NCBI GenBank assembly: GCA_944327625.1
Contig: CALVHL010000006.1
Span: 1 to 64,000 of the forward strand
Direction: 5' to 3'
DNA from: an uncultured Clostridia bacterium
GTDB taxonomy: Bacteria > Bacillota > Clostridia > Christensenellales > Borkfalkiaceae
Length of the DNA stretch: 64,000 bases
The position numbers and the translations under genes were made by a program. Below, piece after piece: positions 1,834 to 58,032 of the stretch (position 1 is its first letter; every line of letters begins with the position of its first letter). Below the pieces are notes generated by a model, which did no database searches, was not told the DNA's origin, and was given only the letters and a program-made list of their open reading frames with translations.

Positions 1834-2931
1834 TCAGTCGGAGAGATTGTCGGGCGGTTGCGGGGCGGCGGAGGGGCGGGCGAGGCGGTCGCCGAAATAG
1901 CGCTTGTTTGAAAGATATGCCGCGTCGTTCGGACGGAAAGAGCCTGCGAGCTCGTTATACTCGTTAGCGCGGGCATAGTCGCCCATTCTGTCGTAGATGA
2001 CGGCGAGGTTTATGGCGGGGATATAGCCGAGGCAATCGGTCGAGACGAAGCCGCCGTCCTCGGCGCGTTCACGCGAGGCGAGGGCGCGTTCAAACCAATA
2101 TATTGCGGGGGCAAACTGTTCTTTGCCGAGAAAATAGCCGCCGAGAGCGCAACATTCTTCCGCCCGCGGATAGGACAGCGCGAACGCCGCAAATATGCAG
2201 TTCAACGCCGAGCGTTCGTCGCCAAGCGACATATACGCCCTGTACATAGTGCGACACGCCTCCACCCTGTTTTCCACCCAACCGTCGCCGCCGAGATAGT
2301 CCGAAAGCACGGCAATGCACTCGCGCGGCATAGAGTTGAAAAAGAGCTCTCTGCCGTAATAGAATTTTTCGCGCGGGGAGAGCTTTTCGCCGCGGGCTAT
2401 CTTGCCCTGATATATCCTGAGATTGCGGAGCGGCGCGTTTTCCCTGACCTTTTCGTGGAAGATGACGGCGTCCGACCAGACCAGCCTGCCCCTCGGCGTA
2501 ATCGCCTCGTGCACCGCCCCTTCCCACAAGGGCGAAAGCGAGCGGAGAAAGATGCGTTCGCGAAAATAGACGAAGCTTACTTCGCCGTCGGTACGCGCGG
2601 CATATTTGAGATACGCCGCGTCAAACCCGCCTCCGTCGACGAGGGCGCGGATGGCGGCGGCATTTTCCTCGGTCACCACGTCGTCCGCGTCCAACCACAT
2701 TACGTAATCCCCGCCCGCGAGCGAAAACGAATAGTTCCGCGCCGCGGAAAAGTCGTCCGTCCACTTAAAAAAATACACCTTGTCGGTGTACTTCGCCGCG
2801 ATTGCAGCGGTAGTGTCGACCGAGCCCGTGTCGACGATTATAATTTCGTCGGCGATATCCTTAATTCCGTCGAGACAGCGGGCAAGCACGGCCTCCTCAT
2901 CCCTGACTATCATGCAAACCGAAAGCGTCAT
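1834..2931 (-). CDS. Family 2 glycosyltransferase with C-terminal TPR region
   Basis: 365 residues. The first ~100 form a GT-A fold: LSVCMIVRDEE at the start, IIIVDTGSVD for nucleotide binding, and WLDADD as the DxD-type metal site. The C-terminal half is helical with tetratricopeptide-like repeats (for example 'FAPAIYWFERALA' and 'INLAVIYDRMGDYARANEY'). This GT2-TPR layout is common in Bacillota enzymes that glycosylate proteins or peptides, but the substrate cannot be read here. No SD site precedes the ATG. A TATAAT box 9 nt upstream predicts a near-leaderless mRNA. The gene stands alone, with the FabZ/FabK group behind it on the same strand. Confidence 0.85.
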   Translation of the reverse strand: MTLSVCMIVRDEEAVLARCLDGIKDIADEIIIVDTGSVDTTAAIAAKYTDKVYFFKWTDDFSAARNYSFSLAGGDYVMWLDADDVVTEENAAAIRALVDGGGFDAAYLKYAARTDGEVSFVYFRERIFLRSLSPLWEGAVHEAITPRGRLVWSDAVIFHEKVRENAPLRNLRIYQGKIARGEKLSPREKFYYGRELFFNSMPRECIAVLSDYLGGDGWVENRVEACRTMYRAYMSLGDERSALNCIFAAFALSYPRAEECCALGGYFLGKEQFAPAIYWFERALASRERAEDGGFVSTDCLGYIPAINLAVIYDRMGDYARANEYNELAGSFRPNDAAYLSNKRYFGDRLARPSAAPQPPDNLSD

Positions 2932-2939
2932 ACAGTGAC

Positions 2940-2968
2940 ATTATATGCAGGGCGGAAAACTTTGTTTA
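2940..2968 (-). promoter_or_regulatory. Promoter of the glycosyltransferase gene, leaderless geometry
   Basis: On the minus strand: TAAACA, 17 bp, TATAAT (2945-2940). The predicted start site is near 2933 and the ATG begins at 2931, leaving about 2 nt of leader. Confidence 0.55.
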
Positions 2969-3008
2969 AAGGCGGCAAAAAGGGCGGCGCGAAAGCGCCG
3001 CCCGATTA

Positions 3009-3046
3009 AATTGCCCCGCATATATGTGCCGATCAACGCGTTATCG
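3009..3046 (+). repeat. Dispersed TTGCCCCGCATATATG element, copy 1
   Basis: Reads AATTGCCCCGCATATATG then TGCCGATCAACGCG. It matches the family seen at 29.4, 30.9, 52.2 and 58.9 kb and is in the same + orientation. It overlaps the stop codon of fabZ. This is the only copy not in a convergent gap. Confidence 0.8.
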
Positions 3047-3469
3047 CGCCGAAGCGGCATCGACGATAGCAAAGGAAAAATCACCCTGAACGCACAGCTT
3101 GTCGCCGACGTACAGCTCGCCAGAAATGAAGTAGAAACACGCCTTGCTGCGCGTAAGTTTTACCTCTATGCGCACCTTATCGCCCGGGCGAACCTGACCA
3201 CGGAAGCGCACGTTGTTTATGCCCGTATAGAAGGGCGTTTTGCCCTCCGCCGCGCCGTCGAACAGCACACAGGAGGACTGTGCAATCATCTCGCAGAGAA
3301 TGACGCCGGGGACGACGGGATAGCCCGGGAAATGCCCGCGCAGGAAAAATTCGTCGCCGCGCACGGTGTAATAGGCGACAGCCGAGGTTTCGTCCTTTCT
3401 GTACGCCTCCTCTATTAGCAGCATATCGTCCCTGTGGGGAAGTATCTTCATTATTTCGTTCTTATCCAT
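3041..3469 (-). CDS. fabZ: 3-hydroxyacyl-[acyl-carrier-protein] dehydratase FabZ
   Basis: 142 residues, the usual FabZ size, one hot-dog fold. It opens with the family signature 'ILPHRDDMLLIEEA'. The active-site helix region 'GHFPGYPVVPGV' carries the catalytic His, and the Glu follows in 'CEMIAQ'. The enzyme dehydrates 3-hydroxyacyl-ACP in type II fatty-acid elongation in the cytosol. The start is supported by a purine-rich SD (GGAGGGGGGAGAGG) just upstream. It lies 16 bp after fabK on the same strand, so the two consecutive steps of the elongation cycle are co-transcribed. Confidence 0.93.
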   Translation of the reverse strand: MDKNEIMKILPHRDDMLLIEEAYRKDETSAVAYYTVRGDEFFLRGHFPGYPVVPGVILCEMIAQSSCVLFDGAAEGKTPFYTGINNVRFRGQVRPGDKVRIEVKLTRSKACFYFISGELYVGDKLCVQGDFSFAIVDAASAR

Positions 3470-3485
3470 AACCTCTCCCCCCTCC

Positions 3486-4433
3486 TTACTTTACGAGCGA
3501 CCGTGCGCCGACGAGCAGTTTTTCCGCCTCCGCGCACATCTCCTCGATTATCTCCCTTGCGGGCTGCTCTCTGTCGACAAGCCCCGCTATTTCGCCGCAG
3601 AGGAACGAACCCGTTTCGAGATCGCCCTCCCGCGCGGCACGGTAGAGCGCGCCCTTGCCGAGATTTTCAAGCTCCTCGTCGGTGACGGACATGTCCGCCT
3701 CCTTTGCCCTGAACTCGTTTACGAAGGCATTTTTGAGCGCCCTTACGGGGTGGCCGAGCCGCCTGCCCGTCACGACCGTCTCTCTGTCGCCCGCCTTCAA
3801 TACGAGCTTTTTATAGTTTTCGTGAATGGTGCACTCGGTTGCGACGAGGAAGCGCGTACCCGACTGGACGGCGCACGCGCCGAGCATGAACGCCGCCGCC
3901 ATGCCCCTGCCGTCGGCAATGCCGCCCGCCGCGATTACGGGTATCTTCACAGCCGACGCAACCTGCGGAACGAGCGCCATGGTCGACAGTTCGCCGATAT
4001 GCCCGCCCGATTCGCCGCCCTCGGCGACTACGGCGTAAGCCCCGCGCTTTTCCATCATTCGGGCGAGCGCGACGCTTGCGACGACGGGAATGACCTTGAT
4101 GCCCGCCGCAAGCCAATCCTTCATATATATCCCGGGATTGCCCGCGCCCGTCGTTATTACGGGTATTTTTTCCTCGGCGACGACCTTTGCCACCTCTGCG
4201 GCAAACGGGCTCATCAGCATGACGTTTACGCCGAAGGGCTTGCTCGTAATTTCGCGCGCCTTGTGTATTTCCGCCCGCAGCTGCTCGCCGTTCATGTTCA
4301 TTCCTGCGATTATGCCCAGCCCGCCCGCTTCGGAGACTGCCGCGGCGAGAGAGGCGTCCGCCACCCACGCCATGCCGCCCTGAATGACGGGATATTTTAT
4401 GCCGAGATCCCTGCAAATTACACTTTCAATCAT
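3486..4433 (-). CDS. fabK: FMN-dependent enoyl-[acyl-carrier-protein] reductase FabK
   Basis: 315 residues, typical of FabK and the nitronate-monooxygenase superfamily. Visible signatures are 'YPVIQGGMAWV' near the N-terminus, 'ITTGAGNP', the His-containing 'GGESGGHIG' that lines the FMN site, and 'IPVIAAGGIADGRGMAAAFMLGA' for FMN phosphate binding. It reduces enoyl-ACP in the last step of fatty-acid elongation. Pairing with fabZ supports FabK over a nitronate monooxygenase. The SD is AAAGGA, 10-12 nt before the ATG. No other enoyl reductase is visible in the window. Confidence 0.9.
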   Translation of the reverse strand: MIESVICRDLGIKYPVIQGGMAWVADASLAAAVSEAGGLGIIAGMNMNGEQLRAEIHKAREITSKPFGVNVMLMSPFAAEVAKVVAEEKIPVITTGAGNPGIYMKDWLAAGIKVIPVVASVALARMMEKRGAYAVVAEGGESGGHIGELSTMALVPQVASAVKIPVIAAGGIADGRGMAAAFMLGACAVQSGTRFLVATECTIHENYKKLVLKAGDRETVVTGRRLGHPVRALKNAFVNEFRAKEADMSVTDEELENLGKGALYRAAREGDLETGSFLCGEIAGLVDREQPAREIIEEMCAEAEKLLVGARSLVK

Positions 4434-4496
4434 CTTTATATCTGTCCTTTATTGCGCCGAGGCGACTGCCGCGGCGTTATTATTTTTGTTATTATT

Positions 4497-5003
4497 TTAT
4501 TTGTTGCGCTCTTTGAGGGCGGCGCGCCCCTTGCGGTTGAGCACGGGATAGGTATTTCTGCACTCTAACCCGCGGCTGGTGTTCTTGACGTCGACGTGGA
4601 AGTCGAGCAGGGCGAATTTGAGGTGCAGGCGGTTGATTATCGCCGAGACCTGCTTTGTGTCGTACAGCCTGCCGCCGCGGGTAAAGCAGTATTCGGTTTC
4701 CACCCCGCCGTCCGCCGCGTCGCGGACGGGCATTACCGTGCCCATGCCTATCTTTTCGAGCAGAATATAGTCGTCGTCTGTGAGCTCGTCGCCGCCGTAG
4801 GCGTCAAGGAGATAGCCGCGCGACTGACCGCGATTACAGATCTTATTCTTCGTATCTTCCGACAGCCCGAGACCGCCGAAACAGTCGAGCATTTCCACCG
4901 CCGCCGCAAGCTTGTCAGCGGGCAGTTTTTCGAGTATTTCCAGCCACGCCGCCTCGCCGTCGCTGAGCGCCGCCCTGTCCTTTGCGCCATTCTTATCCTG
5001 CAT
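4497..5003 (-). CDS. Uncharacterised 168-residue protein upstream of fabK
   Basis: Soluble, no signal peptide or membrane segment. The N-terminal third is helical and acidic. The C-terminal part ends in a basic stretch 'NRKGRAALKERNK'. I recognise no family. It has its own promoter (5033-5061) and a GGCGGTGA SD. It lies 63 bp upstream of fabK in the same direction, so it may be the first gene of the fabK-fabZ transcript. A helix-turn-helix role is possible but not supported by a clear motif. Confidence 0.65.
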   Translation of the reverse strand: MQDKNGAKDRAALSDGEAAWLEILEKLPADKLAAAVEMLDCFGGLGLSEDTKNKICNRGQSRGYLLDAYGGDELTDDDYILLEKIGMGTVMPVRDAADGGVETEYCFTRGGRLYDTKQVSAIINRLHLKFALLDFHVDVKNTSRGLECRNTYPVLNRKGRAALKERNK

Positions 5004-5032
5004 AGTGTCACCGCCTGAACGAGTATATGAGT

Positions 5033-5061
5033 ATTATAGCACATATTTTGCGTACAGACAA
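5033..5061 (-). promoter_or_regulatory. Promoter for the 4497-5003 gene
   Basis: Minus strand TTGTCT (5061-5056), 17 bp, TATAAT (5038-5033). Predicted leader about 23 nt. Confidence 0.65.
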
Positions 5062-5112
5062 GGGGCAATCGCCCCGTTATTGACGGAGAAATTGCCCCTT
5101 TTTATTATTTTT
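5060..5112 (+). terminator. Stem-loop after the ABC exporter operon
   Basis: GGGGCAAT (5062-5069) can pair with ATTGCCCC (5091-5098), which is followed on the + strand by a T-rich run. GGGGC (5062-5066) can instead pair with GCCCC (5071-5075). It separates the exporter operon from the next promoter. The useful direction is unclear because no + strand gene enters it. Confidence 0.5.
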
Positions 5113-5115
5113 TCC

Positions 5116-6996
5116 TCATTCGAGCTCGAACGCGCCCGTATAGAGGCTGTAATACATACCCTTTTTGGCTATAAGGCTTTCGTGATTGCCGCGCTCGACT
5201 ATTCTTCCGTGGTCGAGCACCATTATGACGTCCGAATTGCGGATAGTCGACAGCCTATGCGCTATGACGAATGTCGTCCTGCCCGCCATAAGCTTATCCA
5301 TGCCCTGCTGAACGAGCTTTTCCGTGCGGGTATCAATCAACGAAGTAGCCTCGTCGAGTATCATCGCGGGCGGATTGGCGACTGCCGCGCGGGCGATTGC
5401 GATGAGCTGGCGCTGTCCCTGCGAGAGCCCCGCGCCCGCACCCGTCAGCATAGTGTTATAGCCGTCGGGCAGCCTTCTTATGAAGTCGTCGGCGTTGGCG
5501 AGCTTTGCCGCGGCTATGCACTCCTCGTCGGTCGCGTCCGTCCTGCCGTAGCGGATATTTTCCATTACCGTACCCGTAAAGAGATAGGTGTCCTGCAATA
5601 CCATGCCGAGCGAGCGGCGGAGGTCGGCTTTCTTTATCTTGTTTATGTTTATTCCGTCATAGCGTATCTTGCCGTCGGCTATGTCGTAAAACCTGTTTAT
5701 GAGGTTGGTTATAGTCGTCTTGCCCGCGCCCGTCGCGCCGACGAAGGCGACTTTCTGCCCGGGTTCGGCGTACACCGAAACGCCTTTGAGCACTATCTTT
5801 TCGGGGGTGTAGCCGAAATCGACGTCGACCATCCTTATGTCGCCCGCAAGCCGCGTATACGTCAGAGTGCCGTCGCCGTGCGGGTGTTTCCACGCATATA
5901 TGCCCGTGCGTTCGGAACATTCGACGAGCTTGCCCTCCTCGTCTTCCCTCGCGTTGACGAGTGTGACGTAGCCGTCGTCGGTTTCGGGCGGTTCGTCTAT
6001 GAGCGCGAATATTCGCTCCGCGCCCGCAAACGCCATCGAAATCATGCTTACCTGCTGGGAAATCTGCTGGAAGGGCATGGAGAACGACTTTGAGAGCGTA
6101 AGGAACGCGACGACTACGCCTGCGGTTATGCCGCCAACCCCGCCGACCGCCAGCGCACCGCCGATGAGGGCGAGCAAGACGTACTGGATATTGCCTATCT
6201 GGTTGAGTATGGGCATGAGGATATTTGCATACCTGTTTGCCCTGCGGGAGTGATCGAAAAGCTTTTCGTTGAGCGCGTCGAAGCCCTGCTCCGCCTGCCT
6301 TTCGTGGCAGAATACCTTGACGACTTTCTGCCCGTTGAACATCTCCTCGATATAGCCGTCGACGGTGGCGAGCGCCGTCTGCTGACGGATGAAGTTGCGC
6401 GTGCTGCCGCCTGAAATCTTAGCCGTGACTATGAGTATTATTACCGTGACGACGACCACGACGACGGACAGTATGCGGCTGTAATAGAGCATTATGCAGA
6501 ACGACGCCACGATCGTTATCGCGCTTGCGAATACCTGCGGCAGAGCCTGGGATATGAACTGGCGGAGCGTGTCGGTATCGTTGGTGTAATGGCTCATTAT
6601 ATCGCCGCGCGGATTGCTGTCGAAATACCTTATGGGCAGCGACTGCATCTTGTTGAACATATCGTCCCTTATAGATTTAAGACTGCGCTGCGAGACGAGC
6701 ACCATGAGCTTGCTGTAAACGAGGGTGCAGAGCACGCCGATGAGATATATCGAAGCCATTGCCGCGATCATCTTCAAGAGCCCCGTGAATACGGGGTTCG
6801 CCTCGGTGAGCAGGGGCGCGATATAGTCGTCGACGATGAGCTGGGTGAATATCGAGCCCGCCACGTCTGCCACCGTCGAGATGAGTATGCTTATGAACGA
6901 GATGAAGAATATGCCCTTGTTGTGCAGGACTATGTAGTTCATCAGACGCTTTACCGTCTTTGCGCTGTAACGCGCCTTTTTATTGCTTGCTTTCAT
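5116..6996 (-). CDS. ABC exporter half-transporter, catalytically competent subunit
   Basis: 626 residues: an N-terminal six-helix exporter domain, then an ATPase domain. Motifs are Walker A GATGAGKTT, signature LSQGQ, Walker B 'AMILDEATSLID' with the catalytic Glu, and H-loop 'IAHRLST'. The start is set at 6996 (MKASNKK) because AAGGGAGG lies just upstream; the longer frame to 7086 has no such site. It overlaps the upstream subunit by 17 bp, so the two are translated together as a heterodimer. The substrate (drug, peptide or lipid) cannot be told. About 30 unusual residues sit between the membrane domain and Walker A (near residues 350-385). Confidence 0.9.
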   Translation of the reverse strand: MKASNKKARYSAKTVKRLMNYIVLHNKGIFFISFISILISTVADVAGSIFTQLIVDDYIAPLLTEANPVFTGLLKMIAAMASIYLIGVLCTLVYSKLMVLVSQRSLKSIRDDMFNKMQSLPIRYFDSNPRGDIMSHYTNDTDTLRQFISQALPQVFASAITIVASFCIMLYYSRILSVVVVVVTVIILIVTAKISGGSTRNFIRQQTALATVDGYIEEMFNGQKVVKVFCHERQAEQGFDALNEKLFDHSRRANRYANILMPILNQIGNIQYVLLALIGGALAVGGVGGITAGVVVAFLTLSKSFSMPFQQISQQVSMISMAFAGAERIFALIDEPPETDDGYVTLVNAREDEEGKLVECSERTGIYAWKHPHGDGTLTYTRLAGDIRMVDVDFGYTPEKIVLKGVSVYAEPGQKVAFVGATGAGKTTITNLINRFYDIADGKIRYDGININKIKKADLRRSLGMVLQDTYLFTGTVMENIRYGRTDATDEECIAAAKLANADDFIRRLPDGYNTMLTGAGAGLSQGQRQLIAIARAAVANPPAMILDEATSLIDTRTEKLVQQGMDKLMAGRTTFVIAHRLSTIRNSDVIMVLDHGRIVERGNHESLIAKKGMYYSLYTGAFELE

Positions 6997-18637: not shown

Positions 18638-18666
18638 TTTACTTTTGCGGCGGGATATAGTATAAT
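18638..18666 (+). promoter_or_regulatory. Promoter of rdgB, near-leaderless
   Basis: TTTACT 18638-18643, 17 bp, TATAAT 18661-18666. Predicted start ~18673; the ATG is at 18677 and no SD exists. Confidence 0.7.
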
Positions 18667-18676: not shown

Positions 18677-19252
18677 ATGAGAAAATTACCCGAAAAGATA
18701 GTCGTTGCGAGCGGCAACGCACACAAGATAGACGAAATAAAAAAGATTTTCACCGATTGCGAGCTTATATCCATGCGCGAGGCGGGCTTCGACGGGGATA
18801 TTGAGGAGACGGGCAAGACCTTCAGGGAAAACGCATACATCAAGGCGAAAGCCGTCTGCGACGCCCTCAAAACCGCCGTGCTGGCGGACGATTCGGGGCT
18901 GTGCGTCGACGCGCTGGGCGGTGCGCCGGGCGTATATTCGGCACGTTTTTCGGGCGGAAATTCCGCCGACAACAGGGCGCTTCTTTTAAAAAGGATGCAG
19001 GATATCCCCCAACGTACGGCTCAGTTCGCCTGCGCGGTGTGCCTTATGTTCCCCGACGGCGGCGCGCTTTTCGGCGAGGGATATACCAAGGGCAGAATAC
19101 TGTTCGAGGAAAAGGGCGAGGGCGGCTTCGGCTATGACAGCCTGTTCTTTTCCGACGACCTGAAAAAGTCGTTCGGCGAGGCGAGCGAGGCGGAGAAGAA
19201 CTCGGTCTCCCACCGCTTCCGCGCCCTCGAAGATCTGAGGAGCAAGCTGTGA
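18677..19252 (+). CDS. rdgB: XTP/dITP pyrophosphatase RdgB (HAM1)
   Basis: 191 residues, normal for the family. It begins 'KIVVASGNAHKIDEIKKIF' (the SGNxxK motif), followed by 'VLADDSGLCVDALGGAPGVYSARFSG' carrying the metal and base-recognition residues, and 'GGFGYDSLFF' near the C-terminus with the family's GYDP-like loop. It hydrolyses ITP, dITP and XTP to keep them out of nucleic acids. The ATG at 18677 is chosen because the homologous sequence starts there and a promoter lies just before it. It overlaps the next gene by 4 bp (GTGA). Confidence 0.93.
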   Translation: MRKLPEKIVVASGNAHKIDEIKKIFTDCELISMREAGFDGDIEETGKTFRENAYIKAKAVCDALKTAVLADDSGLCVDALGGAPGVYSARFSGGNSADNRALLLKRMQDIPQRTAQFACAVCLMFPDGGALFGEGYTKGRILFEEKGEGGFGYDSLFFSDDLKKSFGEASEAEKNSVSHRFRALEDLRSKL

Positions 19253-38959: not shown

Positions 38960-39844
38960 TCAGCCGCGCGCGTCGCCGAAGGTATGCAGTCCGCTCGCCC
39001 CGCACGGAAGGGGAATACCCTCGTCGGTGGGCAGGCACACCTCGTAAGACTGCGTATTGCCGCCCCTGCCCGCAAGCCTGAGCGTCAGAATATTGTTGAG
39101 CACGGTGGGTTGAAGCCCCGTCGTGTAGCTGTTCAGAAGCACGAAAAGCGGATCGTCGGAGAGCACTTCGGAGCACAGCCCGACGAAATCGTACAGCGAG
39201 TCCTCTATCTTCCACATCTCGCCGCCCGGGCCCCTGCCGTAGCTGGGGGGATCCATGATTATCGCGTCGTAGCGGTTGCCCCGCCTTATCTCGCGCCGCA
39301 CGAACTTGGCGCAGTCGTCGACTATGTAGCGTATGCCGCTGTCTATGCCCGAAAGTCTGGCGTTTTCGCCCGCCCGCTCGACCATGCCCTTGGCTGCGTC
39401 GACGTGGCAGACCTCAGCGCCCGCCTTGGCACAGGCGACGGTCGCGCCGCCCGTATAGGCAAAGAGGTTCAAGACCTTTACAGGTCTGTCGCCGCGCTTT
39501 TCCTTAGCAGAGGAAATAATCTGTCGCATTGCGTCCCAGTTTACCGCCTGCTCGGGGAAAAGCCCCGTATGCTTGAAGCCCATCGGCTTGACGAGAAAGC
39601 TTAAATCGCCGTAGTTTATCTGCCATTCGGCGGGAAAATTCTTTCTTATTTCCCAGCCCCCGCCGCCCTTTTCGCTGCGGTGGTAGACGGCGTTTATGTT
39701 CTTATCCGCATAGAGGTCGACCGAACTTTTCCAGATAACCTGGGGATCGGGGCGGAGCAGAGTGACCTCGCCCCACCTTTCGAGCTTCATTCCGTCGCCC
39801 GTCGCCAATATGCGATAATCTTTCCAGCTGCCTGCAATCTTCAT
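38960..39844 (-). CDS. RlmI/RlmK-like class I rRNA methyltransferase
   Basis: 294 residues, SAM-dependent. Motif I 'VKVLNLFAYTGGATVA', acidic motif 'VCHVDAAKGMVERA', and motif IV 'YDAIIMDPPSYGRGPGG', the DPPSF/Y signature of the RlmI family that makes m5C in 23S rRNA. The PUA domain of classic RlmI is absent; the protein starts with a short beta region. The mRNA should be leaderless: the -10 box ends 7 nt before the ATG and there is no SD. Confidence 0.85.
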   Translation of the reverse strand: MKIAGSWKDYRILATGDGMKLERWGEVTLLRPDPQVIWKSSVDLYADKNINAVYHRSEKGGGGWEIRKNFPAEWQINYGDLSFLVKPMGFKHTGLFPEQAVNWDAMRQIISSAKEKRGDRPVKVLNLFAYTGGATVACAKAGAEVCHVDAAKGMVERAGENARLSGIDSGIRYIVDDCAKFVRREIRRGNRYDAIIMDPPSYGRGPGGEMWKIEDSLYDFVGLCSEVLSDDPLFVLLNSYTTGLQPTVLNNILTLRLAGRGGNTQSYEVCLPTDEGIPLPCGASGLHTFGDARG

Positions 39845-39851: not shown

Positions 39852-39880
39852 ATTATAGAAGATTATATAAAAAATGTAAA
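39852..39880 (-). promoter_or_regulatory. Promoter of the RlmI-like gene, leaderless geometry
   Basis: Minus strand TTTACA (39880-39875), 17 bp, TATAAT (39857-39852). Predicted start 39845; the ATG begins at 39844. Confidence 0.75.
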
Positions 39881-47556: not shown

Positions 47557-47562
47557 TATAAT
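47557..47562 (+). promoter_or_regulatory. -10 box of the 47571 gene, leaderless geometry
   Basis: TATAAT 47557-47562, predicted start ~47569, ATG at 47571, no SD. A convincing -35 box is not visible. Confidence 0.5.
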
Positions 47563-47570: not shown

Positions 47571-48221
47571 ATGAAACGCCTGATAATTGCACTCCTGCTG
47601 GCGGCGGTATTGCTGTTTTCGGTGAATACGTACATACCGACGCAAGCCGATACGACGAGGTACGCGCGCGCCGACGTGCGGACGGCATACTTCTTTTCGG
47701 AGAGAGATCTTTCGACCTCTCTTTTTGCCGTGCCGTACACCTACTGCATAGAGATACTGCGCGACGACGGCGAATGGTACTACGCGAAATATGCTGCCGA
47801 TGCGGGCATATACCGCGCCGTCTACGGGTATTGCCGCAAGTCCGACTTCGTAGAACTTGTCGAGACGCCGCAGGTCACTTACCTCTACAAGGCGGTCACC
47901 GTCACCTACTCGACGGGGAGCGGGGGCGGCTCGCTGCCCGTATTGGACGAAATAAACGTAGAGGCGGCGTTTTACGGCACGTATTATTCGGGCGCGACGG
48001 CATATTCCTACGTCTACTGTCAGGGTTCGTTCGGCTATATTGAGGGGGCAAACGACGATTATCCGCTCATCGAGGACGAGGACGACGGGGGCGAAACGCC
48101 GCCCGACGACGGCTCCCCCGAGATAAGCGCGGGGCTGATTTCGGCAATAGTCATAAGCCTGCTTGCCGCCGCCGCGCTAATTATGCTGTACCTCACGACG
48201 AGAAAGCGCCCCGAGGGGTGA
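47571..48221 (+). CDS. Secreted/anchored SH3-like protein
   Basis: 216 residues. Signal peptide ('LIIALLLAAVLLFSVNTYIPTQA'), an SH3-like beta domain ('CIEILRDDGEWYYAKYA.. YGYCRKSDFVEL'), an acidic Pro/Asp linker (~170-185) and a C-terminal membrane helix ('GLISAIVISLLAAAALIMLYL') with a short basic tail. Probably outside the membrane facing the wall. It reads opposite to the phage head operon and its stop abuts the stop of the next gene. Its layout resembles the protein at 49008-50330. Confidence 0.75.
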   Translation: MKRLIIALLLAAVLLFSVNTYIPTQADTTRYARADVRTAYFFSERDLSTSLFAVPYTYCIEILRDDGEWYYAKYAADAGIYRAVYGYCRKSDFVELVETPQVTYLYKAVTVTYSTGSGGGSLPVLDEINVEAAFYGTYYSGATAYSYVYCQGSFGYIEGANDDYPLIEDEDDGGETPPDDGSPEISAGLISAIVISLLAAAALIMLYLTTRKRPEG

Positions 48222-48629: not shown

Positions 48630-48972
48630 CCTGTTTCACCCCCTCTGCTGCCGTTGCAATCGCCCTGCGCGTTCACACCGTCGGTCGCCCGTATTTACGA
48701 CCCACCGTCCGAACAATTGCAAACATTTGTTTGTTTACGGCTATATTATAACCGATAAATATGACAAAACCTGCATATTTAACAAATTAAATTAAATTTT
48801 TTTGACATTTATTGCGTGAAAAAACCGCACGGCGGCATTCAAGGCATGCGGACGTGCGGCAAAACGGGCAGACGGAGTTTTTACGCGGGCAAACATACTA
48901 TTTTCGCGGGCGGACGGAGAGCCGCCCGACTTTATCGGCGGCAAAAAGCGGCGGCAGGCAAAACGAAATTTC
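48630..48972. other. Control region between 48629 and 49008 genes
   Basis: On the minus strand a TATAAT (48750-48745) without a good -35 box lies ~115 nt before the GTG at 48629. A perfect inverted repeat CAAACA-TT-TGTTTG (48720-48733) lies just inside the leader, a possible operator. The rest is GC-rich and shows no gene. The open frame extending back to 48816 has no start signal. Confidence 0.5.
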
Positions 48973-49001
48973 TTTACATATTTAAAATTAGGTGTTATAA
49001 T
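48973..49001 (+). promoter_or_regulatory. Promoter of the 49008 gene, leaderless geometry
   Basis: TTTACA 48973-48978, 17 bp, TATAAT 48996-49001. The predicted first base is 49008, the G of the GTG start codon. Confidence 0.78.
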
Positions 49002-49007: not shown

Positions 49008-50330
49008 GTGAATACTTTAAAGAGAGCGACAAAAGCGCTTGCGGCGACGGTTGCCGCGGCGACAATAATATGCGCGTTCTGCACGACTGGCGTTGCGGCG
49101 GCGGCAAACGACGAGACGGTCTATCCCGACGACTTCACGCGGACGCTTGCGATCGACGGCGGCATAACCGACTATGCGGTCGACGGCGACAACCTCGCGC
49201 TTGCCTCCAAGACGACCATCTACGTGCTCGGCAGGGACGAGGCGGGCGACAGAAAGCTGGAAACGGTCGTGCACGAGTCGGAGATCTGCGACCTCGACTA
49301 TGAGAGCGGCAATCTGTACGTCAGAAACACGTTCGGCAACGTCTTCCTCTACCCCGACCTTGCCACCCCCGCCCTGCACGAATTCACGCAGAAAGGGCAG
49401 TGGAAGATAGAACTCGACGACTGCATGTATATGCTTGACATATCGTCGGGCACGCTGTCCTACTGGAAGGACGGCAAGATGACGACGATAGGCGACGGCG
49501 GCTATAACAATATGAAAGTCTACGACGGCGAAGTGTACGTCGTAAACGGCTCTGTACCCTACCGTCTGGACGGCGCGGAGGCGATCGCGCTCGACATGAG
49601 CTATGTAGATTATTCGGGCGCGGACGGCATAAGCACGGGCAATACGGCGGAACTTTTGAAGGCGGACGGCTATAAAGTGACGACGGCGATAATAAACGGC
49701 GGCGCTTACTATACCGAGATAGACGCCGAGGCGATAGGCGAGCATTTCACGCAGATACAGACCTACAAGGCGAGCGGCGAAAAGCCCTGTCTTGTGCTTG
49801 CCGAGAGCGGCAACGCCTCGATAATAGCCATGAACGACGGCGTGTATATCGTTGCGACCGAAAACCTGTCGCTTCGCGACTATTCGGCGCCCGCAAACGA
49901 CTGGGCGGAAGGCGCGGACGGCAGGCGGCTTGCCAATATCGTCGAGGAGACGGGAATATACTCCTCCCCCTGCATGGTCGCGAGCACGGAGATTGCCCGC
50001 ATAGAGCGCGGCGCGACGGTCACGGTCACGGAGAAATTCGCGCTCGACTTCATAGATAACGTATATTACCGCGTGACTTATGAGGACGGCGAGGGCAACA
50101 GCGTTAGCGGCTTCGTCGCGGCGGGATTTCTGGACGAATACGACTATGCGGCGGACACGCTGCCCGGGGAGAGCAAGCCCGACGGCGAATTCGTCTACGA
50201 TACGGACGTGACGACGGTCATACTCGCGCTGATAATCGTAGGGTTGGTAATACTTGCGATAGCCTACCTGACGGTCGTCGGCACCAAGCCGCAGGCAAAG
50301 AGAAACGACAAGGACAGAGAGGATAAATAA
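49008..50330 (+). CDS. Membrane-anchored extracellular protein with SH3-like domain
   Basis: 440 residues from GTG 49008. This start gives a clean signal peptide ('ALAATVAAATIICAFCTTGVAAAA') and matches the promoter; the frame extends upstream but has no start signal there. The middle has propeller-like repeats ('YAVDGDNLALASKTTIYVLG', 'NLYVRNTFGNVFLYPD', 'EVYVVNGSVPYRLDG'). Then comes a bacterial SH3 domain ('TGIYSSPCMVASTEIARIERGATVTVTE'), an acidic linker, a membrane helix and a Lys/Asp-rich tail. Same anchoring scheme as the 47571 protein. Ligand unknown. Confidence 0.8.
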   Translation: MNTLKRATKALAATVAAATIICAFCTTGVAAAANDETVYPDDFTRTLAIDGGITDYAVDGDNLALASKTTIYVLGRDEAGDRKLETVVHESEICDLDYESGNLYVRNTFGNVFLYPDLATPALHEFTQKGQWKIELDDCMYMLDISSGTLSYWKDGKMTTIGDGGYNNMKVYDGEVYVVNGSVPYRLDGAEAIALDMSYVDYSGADGISTGNTAELLKADGYKVTTAIINGGAYYTEIDAEAIGEHFTQIQTYKASGEKPCLVLAESGNASIIAMNDGVYIVATENLSLRDYSAPANDWAEGADGRRLANIVEETGIYSSPCMVASTEIARIERGATVTVTEKFALDFIDNVYYRVTYEDGEGNSVSGFVAAGFLDEYDYAADTLPGESKPDGEFVYDTDVTTVILALIIVGLVILAIAYLTVVGTKPQAKRNDKDREDK

Positions 50331-50597: not shown

Positions 50598-50626
50598 TTG
50601 ACAACGGCGGGATAATGTTATATACT
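50598..50626 (+). promoter_or_regulatory. Promoter of the 50635 gene, leaderless geometry
   Basis: TTGACA 50598-50603, 17 bp, TATACT 50621-50626. Predicted start ~50633; ATG at 50635; no SD. Confidence 0.78.
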
Positions 50627-50634: not shown

Positions 50635-52170
50635 ATGGAAAACGTAAAGACGACGGCGAGGACTATCGCTCTGCCTTCGCCCGACCTGCTCCTCAAAATT
50701 TTTGCGGGCATATCGGCGGGCATCGCGCTAATTCTCACCTTCACCATTTCAGATTATTACATATTCAACAGAATGGACGAGTACGGCGTAATATTCTGCC
50801 TCTCGCAGTGGATAAAGAAGGCGGGGCTGGTCATGATAGTGCTTGCCGCATATTTCGATTGCAGAAGCTGTGCGGACGGCGCGAAATACCTTCTGCCCCT
50901 GCCGATTATTTTAAGCTGTCTTTTGTACGGCGATTACTTTGCGATTACCAAGATCGCCGACACACCCGCGCAGGAGATATACAATTCTATAAACCTCTTT
51001 TTTCCCTTATGGCTGAATATGACGCTCTACTTCTTGCAGAACGTAACGCTCGGGCTGTGCTGTGCGGCTATCGTAATGCGCGACGGACTGCGGGCGGACA
51101 GACGCGCCCTGACAGCCTGCGGGCTGGGAATGCTCGCCGCAATGCCGCTCAATGTCTTTGAAAACTTCTTCGACATAGACGAGATACCAGCCGACAGCTT
51201 CCTCAGGTTTAAGAACTTCACAATCTGGCACCTCATAGCCCTCCTCGCGCTCGCTGGGATAACAATCGGGCTGTATTACTTCCTCCGCAACAAAAAGGAG
51301 GAACAGCAGCACAAATACCTTGCGGCGATCGCCGTGTCGCTGCTTCTGCAATACCACAGCAAGGACAGCATGCTGCTCGGCGACGGCTATAACGTATATA
51401 ATACGGTATTCGCCTGCATACCCCTCTTTATCTGCAATATCGGCGTGTACGTGGCAAGCCTTTCGGTAATGCTCCGCAAAAAGGTGCTGTATGCCATATC
51501 GTTCTTCATTCACGCCGCGGGCGCGCTGACGGTATTCGTCTACTTCGGCAAGGACGAGATGAGCAATTACGGTATATTCTGCTCCTACTCGATACTATTT
51601 TTCTGCTTCACCCACTGCTTCCTGTTCGCGCTGTGCGTGCTTCCCTCGGCGCTCGGGCACTATAAATTCACCATAAGGCAGTGCATAACGCCGCTCATCT
51701 ATTACTTCATAGTAATAGTCACGGCTTCCGTCGCGAGCGCGCTCGTAACCTCCGCCTCAATGGAGTGGCACACCGCCGACGGCGTTTATCTCCAACCCGA
51801 CGAATGGCTCATGCCCAACTATGCGTTCACGCAGATCAACCCCCTGCCCTTTGAAGTGCCGCCCGTGCTGACCGTTAAAATATGGAACTATGAAGTCAAT
51901 CTTCTGTACGTCCTCGGGCTGTACGCCGTGTACGTCGGGCTGTTCTTCGCGTTCTACGGCTTCTACAAGGCATTCCTCGCGATAAGAAAGAAAGTGCTTG
52001 CAAAGCCGACGGCTTCGCCCGTGCCCGCCTACGGCGCGGCATTGCCCGACGCGGAAATTGCCGCCGCAGACGAGCTCAATGACGGACAGCCGCAGGATAT
52101 TCCCGACGGTCAAGCCGAACAGACCGAAGCGGCTGAGGACGAGCCGACGACCGAAAAACAGGGCGATTGA
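50635..52170 (+). CDS. Polytopic membrane protein, possibly YwaF-related
   Basis: 511 residues with about 11 hydrophobic helices and an acidic, disordered C-tail of ~55 residues ('ELNDGQPQDIPDGQAEQTEAAEDEP'). The section 'HYKFTIRQCITPLIYYFIVIVTASVASALVTSASMEWHT ... MPNYAFTQINPLPFE' recalls the YwaF/TMEM164-like family's conserved 'NYMYL' region, but the match is loose. Function unknown. The mRNA is predicted leaderless. It ends 1 bp before a repeat cluster. Confidence 0.75.
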   Translation: MENVKTTARTIALPSPDLLLKIFAGISAGIALILTFTISDYYIFNRMDEYGVIFCLSQWIKKAGLVMIVLAAYFDCRSCADGAKYLLPLPIILSCLLYGDYFAITKIADTPAQEIYNSINLFFPLWLNMTLYFLQNVTLGLCCAAIVMRDGLRADRRALTACGLGMLAAMPLNVFENFFDIDEIPADSFLRFKNFTIWHLIALLALAGITIGLYYFLRNKKEEQQHKYLAAIAVSLLLQYHSKDSMLLGDGYNVYNTVFACIPLFICNIGVYVASLSVMLRKKVLYAISFFIHAAGALTVFVYFGKDEMSNYGIFCSYSILFFCFTHCFLFALCVLPSALGHYKFTIRQCITPLIYYFIVIVTASVASALVTSASMEWHTADGVYLQPDEWLMPNYAFTQINPLPFEVPPVLTVKIWNYEVNLLYVLGLYAVYVGLFFAFYGFYKAFLAIRKKVLAKPTASPVPAYGAALPDAEIAAADELNDGQPQDIPDGQAEQTEAAEDEPTTEKQGD

Positions 52171-52412: not shown

Positions 52413-52446
52413 TGCTTTTTTACGCTGTTTTCAAGCCCTGAAATAA

Positions 52447-53343: not shown

Positions 53344-53457
53344 ATTTTCCAACCTCAGACAGATTTGCAGATATAATGATTATAGCACAATGCGGCGAAA
53401 AAAATACCGCCGTAAATTCAAACGCCCCGCAGAATTTACGGGACGGAATGAATTGAT

Positions 53458-54678: not shown

Positions 54679-54833
54679 AATATGTCTTTCTCCCTCTAAA
54701 TCAAAAGAAATTTATTCCTCATTATAATAACACGAAAGGCATAATTTTACCAACATCTTGACGGGCGATTTTTAAAATTTCGCTTAATTTTTTATTTTTT
54801 TGTCGGCGCGGGCACAAAATTGCCCGATAAGAC

Positions 54834-54862
54834 TTGCATTCGGCGGCGGACTGTCGTAAAAT
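54834..54862 (+). promoter_or_regulatory. Promoter of queH, leaderless geometry
   Basis: TTGCAT 54834-54839, 17 bp, TAAAAT 54857-54862. The predicted first base is 54869, the A of the ATG. Confidence 0.75.
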
Positions 54863-54868
54863 TTGGGT

Positions 54869-55462
54869 ATGAACAAAGTCAACTTCGACAGGGAAATGAC
54901 CGCAATAATGCAATCTTTCGGCGGCGAGCGAAAAAAACTTCTGCTCCACGCCTGCTGCGCGCCCTGCTCCTCCGCCTGCCTCGAACGGCTTAAAGACCAT
55001 TTCGACATTAAGCTTTTTTTCTATAACCCCAACATCGAGGACGAGGAATATAAAAAGCGCAAGGCGGAACTTATAAGGCTTGCCAAAGAGACGGGCTGGG
55101 CGGAAATATGCGAATGCAGCCACGACACAGAGGAATTTTATTCGGCGGTTCAGGGGCTGGAAGGCTGCCCCGAGGGCGGCGCGCGCTGCGCCGCGTGCTT
55201 CAAACTCCGTCTTGAAAGGACGGCTGAACGCGCCAAAGAGCTGGGCGCGGACTATTTCGCCACTACGCTGACGATAAGCCCGCTCAAAGACGCCGCACTT
55301 ATCAACGCGACGGGCTATGCGGCGGGCGAAAAGTACGGCGTTAAGTGGCTGCCCTCCGACTTCAAAAAGCACGACGGGTATTTAAGGAGCCTGCAACTTT
55401 CAAAGGAGTACAATCTTTACAGACAGAATTACTGCGGCTGCATATTTTCATTAAGCACTTGA
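54869..55462 (+). CDS. queH: Epoxyqueuosine reductase QueH
   Basis: 197 residues, the usual QueH length. N-terminal 'LLLHACCAPCSSACLERL' holds the adjacent Cys pair that binds the iron-sulfur cluster with a CxxC, 'CPEGGARCAACFKLRLERTAERAKE' is the second conserved block and 'QNYCGCIFS' the C-terminal Cys pair. It reduces epoxyqueuosine to queuosine in tRNA and replaces QueG in many anaerobes. The ATG at 54869 coincides with the predicted transcript start. The next promoter overlaps its stop codon. Confidence 0.93.
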   Translation: MNKVNFDREMTAIMQSFGGERKKLLLHACCAPCSSACLERLKDHFDIKLFFYNPNIEDEEYKKRKAELIRLAKETGWAEICECSHDTEEFYSAVQGLEGCPEGGARCAACFKLRLERTAERAKELGADYFATTLTISPLKDAALINATGYAAGEKYGVKWLPSDFKKHDGYLRSLQLSKEYNLYRQNYCGCIFSLST

Positions 55463-55487
55463 AAATTGCGGCGCTTAGTAGTATAAT
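55459..55487 (+). promoter_or_regulatory. Promoter of the carbamoyltransferase gene
   Basis: TTGAAA 55459-55464 (includes the queH stop TGA), 17 bp, TATAAT 55482-55487. Leader ~27 nt with GAGAGG. Confidence 0.82.
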
Positions 55488-55520
55488 GTATTTGCTAAGC
55501 TATTTCAAGAGAGGTCTTAT

Positions 55521-56459
55521 ATGGATATTAACCGTTACTCCCCCGTATATTCGGTAAAGCAGAGGCACATGACCAAGCTTGCGGACTATTCCGTAGAGGA
55601 GATATTTGAACTGCTGTACGCGACGCGGCAGATGAAAGCCAAATTCGTCGCGCACGAAAAGACGAATATTTTGCAGGGCGTGACGATCGCCATGCTGTTC
55701 GGCGACACGTCTTTGAGGACGCGCTCGGCGCTCGAAATAGGCGTTCACCAGCTCGGCGGCGACTGCATTAACCTGCAATACAGCGAAAACGATATGCGCG
55801 CGGGCGAGAATATCACCGACATAGTCCACGTAATCTGCCGCTACGGCGTGGGTGCGCTCATCACGAGGGGCATCGTCCAGAGCGAGCTGGACAACTTCAC
55901 CGCCGTTTCGCCCATACCCGTCATCAACTCTACCAATACCGACTATGTACCCATGCAGACGATAAGCGACCTCTATACTATATGGGAGAAGAAGAAAAAG
56001 CTTGAAGGGCTTAAAATAGCGTACATAGGCAAGGGCACGAACGTCGCCGCCTCCCTCATCATGGGCGCGGTCAAGTGCGGCATGGAAGTCGCCGTCGCCA
56101 CCCCTGCGGAGTTCGGCATAAAGCTCCGCCACATAGAGAATGCCGAGCAGTACGGCAGCATTTTCCTTACCGACGAGCCCGCGCTCGCCGCGAAGAATGC
56201 CGACGTAATCTACACGGACAGCTACCACTATCACTCCGTCCTGACCGAGGAAGAAGCCAAAATTCTTCAACCCTATAAGGTCACCAACCGCCTTATGAGC
56301 GTTGCGTCGGGCACGGCGCTTTTCATGCACCCCCTGCCCGCAAAGCGCGGAGTCGAAGTTACGTCGGACGTAATCGACGGCAAGCAGAGCATTGTCTACG
56401 ACCAGGCTGAAAACAAGCTCCACGCAATCAAGGCAATACTCGCCCTGCTCGTCAGATAA
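55521..56459 (+). CDS. Ornithine/aspartate-type carbamoyltransferase, atypical
   Basis: 312 residues, full length. The carbamoyl-phosphate loop is 'FGDTSLRTRSALE' (SLRTR at 64-68, normally S-T-R-T-R). The second-domain motif is 'NSTNTDYVPMQTISDL', where ornithine enzymes have HPCQ. The Cys of the HCLP motif is Pro ('FMHPLPAKRG', as in aspartate enzymes), and the ornithine-binding SMG loop is replaced by 'TDSYHYHSVL'. The end 'VTSDVIDGKQSIVYDQAENKLHAIKAIL' is canonical OTC. So the fold is sure, but the second substrate is open: putrescine, an acyl-ornithine or another amine. Single gene with its own promoter and terminator. Confidence 0.8.
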   Translation: MDINRYSPVYSVKQRHMTKLADYSVEEIFELLYATRQMKAKFVAHEKTNILQGVTIAMLFGDTSLRTRSALEIGVHQLGGDCINLQYSENDMRAGENITDIVHVICRYGVGALITRGIVQSELDNFTAVSPIPVINSTNTDYVPMQTISDLYTIWEKKKKLEGLKIAYIGKGTNVAASLIMGAVKCGMEVAVATPAEFGIKLRHIENAEQYGSIFLTDEPALAAKNADVIYTDSYHYHSVLTEEEAKILQPYKVTNRLMSVASGTALFMHPLPAKRGVEVTSDVIDGKQSIVYDQAENKLHAIKAILALLVR

Positions 56460-56483
56460 AAATTTCAGAAGGACAAAAAATTG

Positions 56484-56510
56484 CCCTCCCGATTGACGGG
56501 AGGGTTTTTT
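56484..56510 (+). terminator. Terminator of the carbamoyltransferase gene
   Basis: CCCTCCCG-ATTGA-CGGGAGGG followed by TTTTTT. Confidence 0.92.
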
Positions 56511-56526
56511 GCGTATTTTATTCAGC

Positions 56527-57330
56527 TCACGCGCCGATAAGCTCTATGACGACGACTTCGGGGCGGTTGAATATGCGGAGCGGGAACTCGGAATTGCCCA
56601 GCCCGCGGGAGACTATCATGCGGGTATCGCCCGCCGAGTGCATGCCCTCGGCATACTTGGGGAACAGCCCCTGTCCGGGGGAATATACGCCGATCGACGT
56701 GAAGGGTATTCTCCACTGCCCGCCGTGCGCATGCCCCGAGAGCACGAGGTCATAGCCCGCCATAGAGTACCTTGAAAGATACTGCGGCTCGTGCGCGAGC
56801 AGGAGCTTGAAGCCCTGTACTCCGTCGGCAAGCCTGAAAACCGTCGCATTTTTGAGGTGCGCGGCGTTGACGCCGATAATCTTAATGCCGAACGCCTCGA
56901 CGCACTGGTTGTCGAGCACTATCGCGCCCGCGTCGGCAATTGCCTTTTTGAGCGAGCGATAGTTCTTGTTTCTCATCTCGTGGTTGCCCGCGACGAAATA
57001 GACGGGCGCAATTTTGACGAGTTGCGAGATGGTGTAAGCGGCAACTTCCGTTCCGCCGCCCTTATAGTTGTGAATTATGTCGCCCGTAAAGCAGATAACG
57101 TCGGGCGACTGCGCCCTGACCAGCCTGAACAGCCTTTCGCCCTTTTTGCCGAACAGCTTGGCGTGCAGGTCGGAAAGATGAACTATCTTTATGCTTTTTC
57201 GGGGTATTTCGGGGGATTTTACGCGGTATTTTGTCAGTTTCAGCGCATTGTTGCTGTACCACGCGAACAGCACAAGGAGCACCGCCGCGGCGACCGCGCC
57301 GCAGATTATGCCGATAGTAAGGGGCGTCAC
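56527..57330 (-). CDS. Membrane-anchored metallophosphoesterase (YkuE-like)
   Basis: 267 residues from GTG 57330, which overlaps the trmB stop (GTGA). N-terminal signal anchor ('IGIICGAVAAAVLLVLFAWY'), then a calcineurin-type fold: 'IVHLSDLHAKLFGKKG', 'CFTGDIIHNYKGGG', 'YFVAGNHEMRN', 'LLLAHEPQY' and 'VLSGHAHGGQW', all metal ligands present. It should act outside the membrane on a phosphate ester. Homologues of this type include YkuE and LpxH-like proteins; substrate unknown. Confidence 0.9.
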   Translation of the reverse strand: MTPLTIGIICGAVAAAVLLVLFAWYSNNALKLTKYRVKSPEIPRKSIKIVHLSDLHAKLFGKKGERLFRLVRAQSPDVICFTGDIIHNYKGGGTEVAAYTISQLVKIAPVYFVAGNHEMRNKNYRSLKKAIADAGAIVLDNQCVEAFGIKIIGVNAAHLKNATVFRLADGVQGFKLLLAHEPQYLSRYSMAGYDLVLSGHAHGGQWRIPFTSIGVYSPGQGLFPKYAEGMHSAGDTRMIVSRGLGNSEFPLRIFNRPEVVVIELIGA

Positions 57331-57995
57331 TTTACCTTGCAGATTATCCTGTATATATTTTTGCCCATTTCGGTAAACCTCTTTTCGTGCTCGGTCACAA
57401 TGTTGTCCGCATCCCCCGACGCGGCGAGATCTTCGCACTTTTCAAGTATTTCAAAGCCGCAACTTTCATAGCTTTCGAGCGAGAAAGCGTAGAACGCGGC
57501 GTCGTCGGTCTTCTGAATTATCTTCGCCCCGCTCTTTAAAAGCCCCTCGTAGATTTTGAGAAAGCGCGGGTGCGTCAGCCGCTGCTTGACGTAGCCGAGT
57601 TTGGGGAGCGGGTTGGAGAAATTGAGATAGAGCGCCTCTATGGAGTTTTCGGGAATGTAGCGGGGCAGAACCTCCGCCGCGCAGTTTAAGAAATGCACGT
57701 TTTTGAGCCCCGCGCTCTGCGCGTTTTCGCACGCTTCGATGAGCACGTTGGAGATCTTTTCGACGGCGATATAGTTAATGTCGGGGTTTTTTGCCGCAAG
57801 ACGGCAGATAAAGCCGCCCTTGCCGCAGCCTATTTCAAGGCAGACGGGGTTATCGTTGCCGAAAACGGCTTTAAAGTCCAGAAGGTCTCTGAGGTTTGCC
57901 GCCGTCTTCATATTCTTTTCTTCGACGTCCGCCATCGTCAGGTTTGAACAACTTGCCAGCCGCTCGTCGAGGTGTGATTTTCTGTGCATTCTCAT
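57327..57995 (-). CDS. trmB: tRNA (guanine-N7)-methyltransferase TrmB
   Basis: 222 residues. The start region 'MRMHRKSHLDERLASCSNL' has the Arg/Lys-rich pattern of the family, then SAM motif I 'VCLEIGCGKGGFICRLAAKNP', 'YIAVEKISNVLIEACENA' and the catalytic region 'EALYLNFSNPLPKLGYVKQRLTHPRFLKIY' (normally NFSDPWPK; here N-P-L-P). It makes m7G46 in tRNA. The Pro-Leu change in the catalytic strand is worth noting. The mRNA is predicted leaderless. It is translationally coupled to the phosphoesterase. Confidence 0.92.
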   Translation of the reverse strand: MRMHRKSHLDERLASCSNLTMADVEEKNMKTAANLRDLLDFKAVFGNDNPVCLEIGCGKGGFICRLAAKNPDINYIAVEKISNVLIEACENAQSAGLKNVHFLNCAAEVLPRYIPENSIEALYLNFSNPLPKLGYVKQRLTHPRFLKIYEGLLKSGAKIIQKTDDAAFYAFSLESYESCGFEILEKCEDLAASGDADNIVTEHEKRFTEMGKNIYRIICKVK

Positions 57996-58002
57996 ATAGT
58001 AA

Positions 58003-58032
58003 ATTCTACCATAAAAGACATATTATGCGCAA
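58003..58032 (-). promoter_or_regulatory. Promoter of trmB, leaderless geometry
   Basis: Minus strand TTGCGC (58032-58027), 18 bp, TAGAAT (58008-58003). Predicted start 57996; ATG begins 57995; no SD. Confidence 0.65.

Follow-up and report, generated by a model that had tools for sequence, protein, structure and literature searches.

Leaderless start codons are recognized by 70S ribosomes, and leaderless starts are already known from other bacteria. In Firmicutes, Zheng et al. 2011 reported TA-led genes in 56 of 209 genomes, at a mean of 4.2% of genes (range 2.4-16.6) (PMC3160421). In three clostridia the leaderless share of transcripts is 2-3% (PMC9045289), 15 leaderless genes are reported for C. 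difficile (PMC7438776), and 7 leaderless mRNAs for Sporomusa (PMC12456013). In C. phytofermentans the class amounts to 4% of 'InterS' start sites, with the RBS retained, and the leaderless candidates described generally have a further upstream start together with an RBS (PMC5171806). In Deinococcus, a '-10 adjacent to ORF' pattern has been described, which the title of the report calls common in Deinococcus-Thermus (PMC12340547). Some antibiotics are reported to stop initiation on leadered but not on leaderless mRNAs (PMC9581028).

Here we analyzed a window of 64,000 nucleotides from an uncultured Clostridia bacterium, together with a larger sample of its genome and with related genomes. Taken together, the sequence evidence makes it highly probable that a minority of the transcription units of this bacterium are leaderless, the remainder of the genome using ordinary Shine-Dalgarno (SD) initiation. 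The arrangement is like that of TA-led genes as reported, with a TANNNT box about 12 bp before the start, no SD, and SD-led genes alongside; it differs from them in a strong preference for T at position -1 and, for some genes, in -35/-10 promoters conserved between orthologues, and the parts of the 2011 survey available to us do not name this lineage (PMC3160421). As in the Deinococcus pattern, the -10 box lies directly before the open reading frame, and the same 6-nt phase is seen in our D. radiodurans MP1 control, where the replicon scanned peaks at spacer 6; unlike in Deinococcus-Thermus, where the pattern is called common, it is here a minority mode and often has a -35 box (PMC12340547). 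The leaderless fraction is small, as in the mapped clostridia (PMC9045289, PMC5171806, PMC7438776). In contrast to C. phytofermentans, where an RBS and another upstream start are generally said to be kept, the genes described here are SD-less, and for some of them the promoters are conserved in relatives (PMC5171806). The view of the first-pass annotation that leaderless genes are not usually described as frequent in Clostridia is half right: their fraction is low in mapped clostridia, but such genes had already been reported in part of the Firmicutes genomes surveyed (PMC3160421).

Eight genes of the window had been proposed as leaderless, and all eight start codons are present as claimed. 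A TAnnnT box lies close upstream of each, and in seven the spacer, measured from the end of the -10 box to the start codon, is within the 5-9 nt that define the leaderless class. On the minus strand, the glycosyltransferase family 2 gene (1834..2931; Pfam Glycos_transf_2) starts at ATG 2931, with no SD and T at -1, 8 nt from a TATAAT box (2940..2945) with -35 TAAACA (4/6) at 2963-2968; the RlmI-like SAM methyltransferase gene (38960..39844; Methyltrans_SAM) has a leaderless-type start, ATG 39844, 7 nt from TATAAT (39852..39857), with -35 TTTACA (5/6) at 39875-39880; and the leaderless-type start of trmB (57327..57995; NF001080 above cut-off), ATG 57995, lies 7 nt from an extended -10, TG-n-TAGAAT (58003..58008), with a -35 of just 3/6. 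On the plus strand, the leaderless-type start of the gene for a TMEM164-like membrane protein (50635..52170; PF14808), ATG 50635, is 8 nt from TATACT (50621..50626), with a perfect -35, TTGACA (6/6), at 50598-50603, and that of queH (54869..55462; PF02677 QueH), ATG 54869, is 6 nt from TAAAAT (54857..54862), with a weak -35, TTGCAT (3/6), at 54834-54839. Two further plus-strand proteins have, by eye in their translations, a signal-like N-terminus: one (47571..48221; no match in Pfam or NCBIfam) has a leaderless-type start at ATG 47571, 8 nt from TATAAT (47557..47562), with no -35 (best 1/6), and the other (49008..50330) has one at GTG 49008, 6 nt from an extended -10, TG-n-TATAAT (48996..49001), with -35 TTTACA (5/6) at 48973-48978. 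The eighth gene, rdgB/Ham1 (18677..19252, plus strand; Ham1p_like, TIGR00042), departs from the layout in that its TATAAT box (18661..18666; -35 TTTACT, 4/6, at 18638-18643) is 10 nt from ATG 18677, which predicts a leader of 3-4 nt.

Two details of the proposal need correction. All eight genes had been said to lack an SD, which a 4-mer test of the sequence upstream of the start confirms for seven; at 49008 the test picks out a 5-mer, which lies some 15 nt upstream and coincides in part with the extended -10. The statement that six genes have a full -35 at 17 bp, and trmB one at 18 bp, was overstated: when matches to TTGACA were scored at 16-18 bp and at least 4/6 was counted as present, five of the eight qualified (2931, 18677, 39844, 49008 and 50635), and queH, trmB and 47571 fell below the threshold. 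Considered as ordinary SD-led genes, with an SD a few nucleotides before the start, the eight starts did not fit.

The earlier annotation had suggested a scan for -10 boxes directly before SD-less genes, compared with shuffled sequence. We scanned 864 kb (47% of the genome), where 735 genes were called, with starts chosen without use of upstream signals; 711 had a start codon and 100 nt upstream, and 699 of these a known neighbor, comprising 359 first genes, which open a transcription unit, 300 operon-internal genes and 40 in neither set. Such boxes are clearly enriched: 30 of the 141 SD-less first genes have a -10 at spacer 5-9, against 6.3 ± 2.6 (mean and s.d.; maximum 13) in 200 dinucleotide shuffles, so that about 6 of the 30 are expected by chance. 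SD-led first genes show no excess (6/218; shuffle 6.9; Fisher P = 2e-8 for SD-less versus SD-led), and the box is found at this spacing in 5/300 operon-internal genes and before 35/5095 in-frame internal ATGs. Peak spacers of 5-9 nt with a mode of 6 agree with the position of the first T of TANNNT in TA-led genes, about 12 bp before the start, and with this mode +1 would therefore fall on the start codon. A -35 of at least 4/6 accompanies 57% of the 30 boxes, compared with 12% at shifted spacings, and the base at -1 is T in 28 and C in 2; when spacer-6 sites were pooled with those in samples of seven relatives (n = 36), it was T in 30 and C in 6. When the choice of start codon was left open, full promoters again peaked at spacer 6 (16, versus 0-3 per position at spacers 10-17), with 6 more at spacer 0 and 5 at spacer 4. 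The Pfam scan covered 20 of the 25 candidates outside the window. In E. coli K-12, a -10 in the class was found for 3/59 genes, each of them at spacer 7 and none at spacer 6; shuffling gave 1.4 ± 1.1.

Of the eight window genes, the automatic analysis retrieved five: 49008 was missed because of the choice of start, 57995 because a low-scoring short ORF was called upstream, and 18677 because of its 10-nt spacer. The window is not a hot spot, with 5/31 of its first genes in the class versus 25/328 in the rest of the sample (Fisher P = 0.16).

The leaderless layout looks to be kept across relatives for several genes. For gene 50635 we examined sixteen same-genus relatives of the 36 genomes with a match, chosen among the higher entries of the list and for ease of placing, with their upstream DNA unseen beforehand; for four other genes we used the best 30 loci, window gene included, out of 60, 60, 49 and 59 matching genomes. 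A full promoter lies 5-9 nt before gene 50635 in all 16 orthologues, and a -10 alone also lies at 10-14 nt in 9 of them. Among the best loci, a full promoter at 5-9 nt is found for the RlmI-like gene in 15/29 relatives (16/30 with the window gene; of 80 loci in named genomes 30 were used and 28 read), and a -10 at this distance for queH in 14/29 (15/30). The signal is weak for rdgB. One locus was left out because it had no usable start; of the remaining 28 relatives, 7 carry the -10 box 5-9 nt before the gene, and the window gene itself falls outside this range. For trmB the expected positional preference was not found among these loci, the 5/29 relatives (6/30 with the window gene) being equal to the next bin. 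Orthologues that lack the layout are not SD-less too, since an SD is found in 9/14 such loci of the RlmI-like gene and 7/15 of queH; among loci with the layout, 5/15 of queH carry an SD-like 4-mer. In a more distant relative, Pumilibacter muris CLA-AA-M08 (ValS 58% identical), one sampled locus contains two candidate leaderless genes, at its positions 2969 and 8433; the RlmI-like gene of this strain lacks the layout.

This conservation bears on an alternative that we regard as improbable, namely that the start-adjacent promoters are secondary and that a main promoter farther upstream yields an mRNA that has a leader yet is translated without any SD. Such a pattern has been reported in C. phytofermentans (PMC5171806), and extra -10-like boxes do lie upstream of some window genes (39844, spacer 17; 50635, spacer 47). 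However, when a -35 of at least 5/6 is required, the promoter of gene 50635 lies at 5-9 nt in 16/16 orthologues, no other bin of 5 nt as far as 59 nt holding more than 1/16, and all 16 RlmI-like loci with the layout are SD-less. Still less likely, in our judgment, is a misassignment of starts, in which the real start would lie downstream with its own SD and the -10 would give an ordinary leader. Starts were indeed picked blind to upstream signals, and for one of the eight, 49008, the gene finder chose an extended start at 48846; a complete promoter coincides exactly with the position of GTG 49008, translation from which gives an apparent Sec signal peptide by eye. Against misassignment, alignments begin at residue 1 in 47/49 cases for trmB, each of the 57 strong alignments of the RlmI-like protein begins within residues 1-6, and both the spacer peak and the T at -1 go with the start codon as named. 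That TATAAT merely occurs near starts in AT-rich upstream DNA is very hard to credit for the set as a whole in view of the shuffles, shifted spacers, internal ATGs, E. coli control and conservation, even though bare pattern counts gave no excess; 47571 and other individual sites that have neither a -35 nor support from orthologues may still be due to chance.

Those bare counts concern the ungated pattern TATAAT-N5-8-ATG, which occurs 100 times in the whole genome, against 99 at N11-14; a reversed-pattern control (67) pointed to an excess that the spacing control did not back. Because signal equals background even in this genome, we rejected the count in 196 genomes of the class as a gauge of leaderless use. 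The excess over all 359 first genes is 12.8 with the strict -10 (3.6%), -3.5 with the loose TANNNT, and 23.5 (6.5% of 359) when counted on the SD-less first genes. To call leaderless mRNAs common, as was first done, is consequently too strong for what is a modest excess of about 13-24 first genes, or, of the 699 genes whose neighbors are known, some 2-3%; this share is within the published Firmicutes range, and equal to or somewhat over that of mapped clostridia. In another family of the same order, with small genomes, the count was 23/175.

Sequence statistics and conservation establish the promoter position predicted, the lack of an SD, the T at -1 and the coexistence with SD-led genes, and the earlier proposal that two modes coexist is borne out by position, base context, SD lack and conservation alike. 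From the -10 spacing and the -1 T, we infer that the 5' ends themselves would lie at the start codon. A housekeeping promoter of the sigma-A type would be placed such that RNA polymerase begins at the initial base of the start codon or a few nucleotides from it, usually just after a T, and the resulting mRNA would have no SD, the ribosome presumably binding the 5'-terminal AUG or GUG directly. We rejected a decay of SD initiation, since the anti-SD is kept in the 16S tail of both same-genus full-length 16S genes found; the search gave a match of any kind in 3/41 genomes and none in the bacterium's own assembly. S1 domains are present (6 matches).

In these bacteria, most of which are uncultured, gene finders tuned to SD sequences may place the starts of such genes wrongly. 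Tentatively, an order of gut Clostridia might have retained leaderless initiation as a permanent second mode, built around a conserved set of genes (the membrane protein 50635, the RlmI-like gene, queH and perhaps RNA-modification enzymes generally) and accounting for up to 13% of transcription-unit starts in the small-genome family. Single genes might pass back and forth between two states, SD-led and often within an operon or leaderless and standing alone, according to whether a promoter has come to lie on the start codon. The conserved cases would provide a test bed, within the Clostridia, for the shift of genes between SD-led and leaderless states.

The genome (1.83 Mb in 29 contigs, completeness 96.9%) has as its closest named relatives by valyl-tRNA synthetase, among the best 80 loci, uncultured Clostridia and Candidatus Coproplasma, which NCBI places in Clostridia, Eubacteriales incertae sedis. 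Eight genes of the window had been proposed by the first-pass annotation to be leaderless, with RNA starting at or within a few nucleotides of the start codon, and all eight starts do open reading frames. They encode a glycosyltransferase (start codon at 2931), RdgB/Ham1 (18677), an RlmI-like methyltransferase (39844), a TMEM164-like membrane protein (50635), QueH (54869), TrmB (57995) and, from the starts at 47571 and 49008 (GTG), two proteins with no family match. A -10 box lies just before each of them, ending 6-10 nt upstream. The absence of a Shine-Dalgarno (SD) sequence held for seven, while at 49008 a 5-mer overlapping the promoter was flagged, and the -35 element claimed for seven was found in only five of the eight (at least 4/6 matches at 16-18 bp).

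Using a gene finder blind to upstream signals, we called genes in the window and in 40 stretches of 20 kb, together 864 kb or 47% of the genome, and defined a -10 box as TAnnnT in which two or more of the central three bases match and whose end lies 5-9 nt before the start. An SD was lacking in 141 of the 359 first genes, those that open a transcription unit, and 30 of these 141 carried such a box, compared with 6.3 ± 2.6 (maximum 13) in 200 dinucleotide shuffles, more than chance for this genome sample. Boxes were found in 6/218 SD-led first genes (shuffles 6.9) and, among operon-internal genes, in 4/96 without SD (shuffles 2.1) and 1/204 with SD. At a spacer of 6 nt between box and start codon, SD-less first genes had 15 boxes against a baseline of 1.7. 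Over spacers 5-9 the excess was 23.5 genes, or 6.5% of 359, falling to 12.8 (3.6%) without the SD filter; with the loose TANNNT and no SD filter no excess appeared in the 359 first genes (-3.5), nor did it in a pattern count that ignored gene context (100 vs 99). When a -35 of at least 4/6 was required and the start codon left free, there were 16 sites at spacer 6, 6 at spacer 0, 5 at spacer 4 and 0-3 at each spacer from 10 to 17, promoters with ordinary leaders being seen from 18 nt onward. About a fifth of the 30 should be chance cases, and our estimate is that about 13-24 genes, or roughly 2-3% of the 699 with known neighbours, are probably of leaderless type. The earlier view that leaderless genes are common here is thus right as to a real signal and overstated as to frequency; the window itself was not significantly enriched relative to the rest of the sample.

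The candidates include enzymes of RNA-modification or methyltransferase type, namely those at 39844, 54869 and 57995 in the window and two others, one with PUA_3 and Methyltrans_SAM and one with an MTS domain (L039:2871-4040, L017:2299-3009, on fetched loci of this genome). In two divergent pairs both genes look leaderless (L039:4040/4153, 112-nt gap; L038:5688/5781, 92-nt gap).

When the spacer is 6, the canonical +1 coincides with the start codon's first base, a predicted position at these genes. Of the 30 genes, 28 had T at base -1 and 2 had C, compared with 49% T in SD-led first genes; T is also common in the latter when set against operon-internal genes (36%) in the same sample. In a pool of this genome, two genomes of its family and five of another family in the order, base -1 was T in 30 and C in 6 of the 36 spacer-6 sites, whose +1 purine is due to the start ATG or GTG itself. 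T also adjoined the start codon at spacers 5 (8/9), 7 (7/8), 8 (5/6) and 9 (5/6), which suggests that the initiator would follow the start codon and not merely the position of the -10 box.

Some genes, but not all, show good conservation of the layout, with the -10 box 5-9 nt before the start. Conservation is strongest, among those examined, for gene 50635, for which short upstream stretches of 16 same-genus orthologues were used, out of 36 relatives with a match. In 16/16, an in-frame start was preceded at 5-9 nt by a -10 box whose -35 matched at 5/6 or better, other 5-nt bins holding 0 or 1/16; the -10 alone was less specific (16/16, and 9/16 at 10-14 nt). In most of these orthologues start and promoter lay at least 5 codons from the alignment-extrapolated position, the first start showing the layout being taken.

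Family searches covered 17 genera, with 30 loci per gene (29 counted for rdgB), window gene included. The box stood at 5-9 nt in 16/30 loci for the RlmI-like gene, 15/30 for queH, 7/29 for rdgB and 6/30 for trmB, or 15/29, 14/29, 7/28 and 5/29 without the window gene; neighbouring bins held 8 (RlmI-like, 0-4), 4 (rdgB, next bin) and 6 (trmB, next bin). Full promoters (-35 at least 4/6) at 5-9 nt numbered 16, 7, 6 and 4 in the same gene order, with maxima elsewhere of 4, 1, 3 and 4. Among named RlmI-like loci the layout was present in 3/6 nearer ones and 1/22 of the more distant (57-67% identical). In three loci (L238-L240) TATAAT abuts the RlmI-like ATG at spacer 0. Three RlmI-like matches (L214, L216, L320) have one TGA within the aligned stretch, which may simply be the regular stop codon close to the C-terminus.

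In front of the RlmI-like gene, an SD and the leaderless layout appear to exclude each other, an SD-like 4-mer being present in 0/16 family loci with the layout and 9/14 without (L211-L240), and in 0/4 and 12/23 of the named loci (L319-L346); for queH the counts were 5/15 and 7/15. An upstream ORF of at least 60 codons, whose end lay no more than 30 nt before or 20 nt into the gene, accompanied 6/16 RlmI-like loci with the layout and 10/14 without, and 6/15 and 10/15 queH loci. From these counts the genes seem to switch between SD-led or operon-borne and leaderless states. The idea that they never had an SD is contradicted by the SD-like 4-mers of layout-less orthologues.

Applied to 200 kb of E. 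coli K-12, the same pipeline gave 3/59 SD-less first genes with a box (shuffle 1.4 ± 1.1); the spacer was 7 in each of the three, and -1 was never T. In D. radiodurans MP1 (150 kb) it gave 2/47 (0.2 ± 0.5), and TANNNT stood at spacer 6 in 6/47. Counts in first genes were 7/87 in a genome of the same genus (G195; shuffle 2.0), 3/76 in one of the same family (G217; 1.6), 0/44, 1/24 and 2/50 in three of the same order (G013, G016, G085; 1.1, 0.5, 0.5), and 1/77 and 3/105 in two other families of the class (0.9, 2.3). Leaderless-looking genes were more frequent in a same-order family with 0.8-1.1-Mb genomes (L281-L285 and L301-L318, from G024, G132, G176, G059 and G110), which gave 9/40, 1/22, 4/37, 6/42 and 3/34, in sum 23/175 against about 5.5 in shuffles, with -1 T in 16/23 and, over all first genes, a sharp peak at spacer 6 (16 boxes). 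In 80 named records, the loci around valS gave, by identity band, 9/166, 4/121, 4/68 and 9/172 (shuffles 3.2, 1.5, 2.1, 3.3) and no sharp peak at spacer 6; they are largely one shared region and not independent, so that the class-level contrast rests on two genomes here and on published maps.

Those maps in relatives give 2-3% of transcripts (PMC9045289), 4% of 'InterS' sites, the RBS being kept (PMC5171806), 15 genes (PMC7438776) and 7 mRNAs (PMC12456013). Zheng et al. (PMC3160421) already described, across bacteria, leaderless genes that carry a -10 box some 12 bp upstream, and report them in 56/209 Firmicutes genomes at a mean of 4.2% of genes (range 2.4-16.6); our estimate falls towards the bottom of this range. 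Among the matches listed for leaderless mRNAs or transcripts with Christensenellales, Bacillota or gut Clostridia, no description for this lineage was found. We file these genes under the already known leaderless kind, with the conservation of their promoters as the new information; the phenomenon is real in this genome, modest in frequency and mechanistically ordinary.
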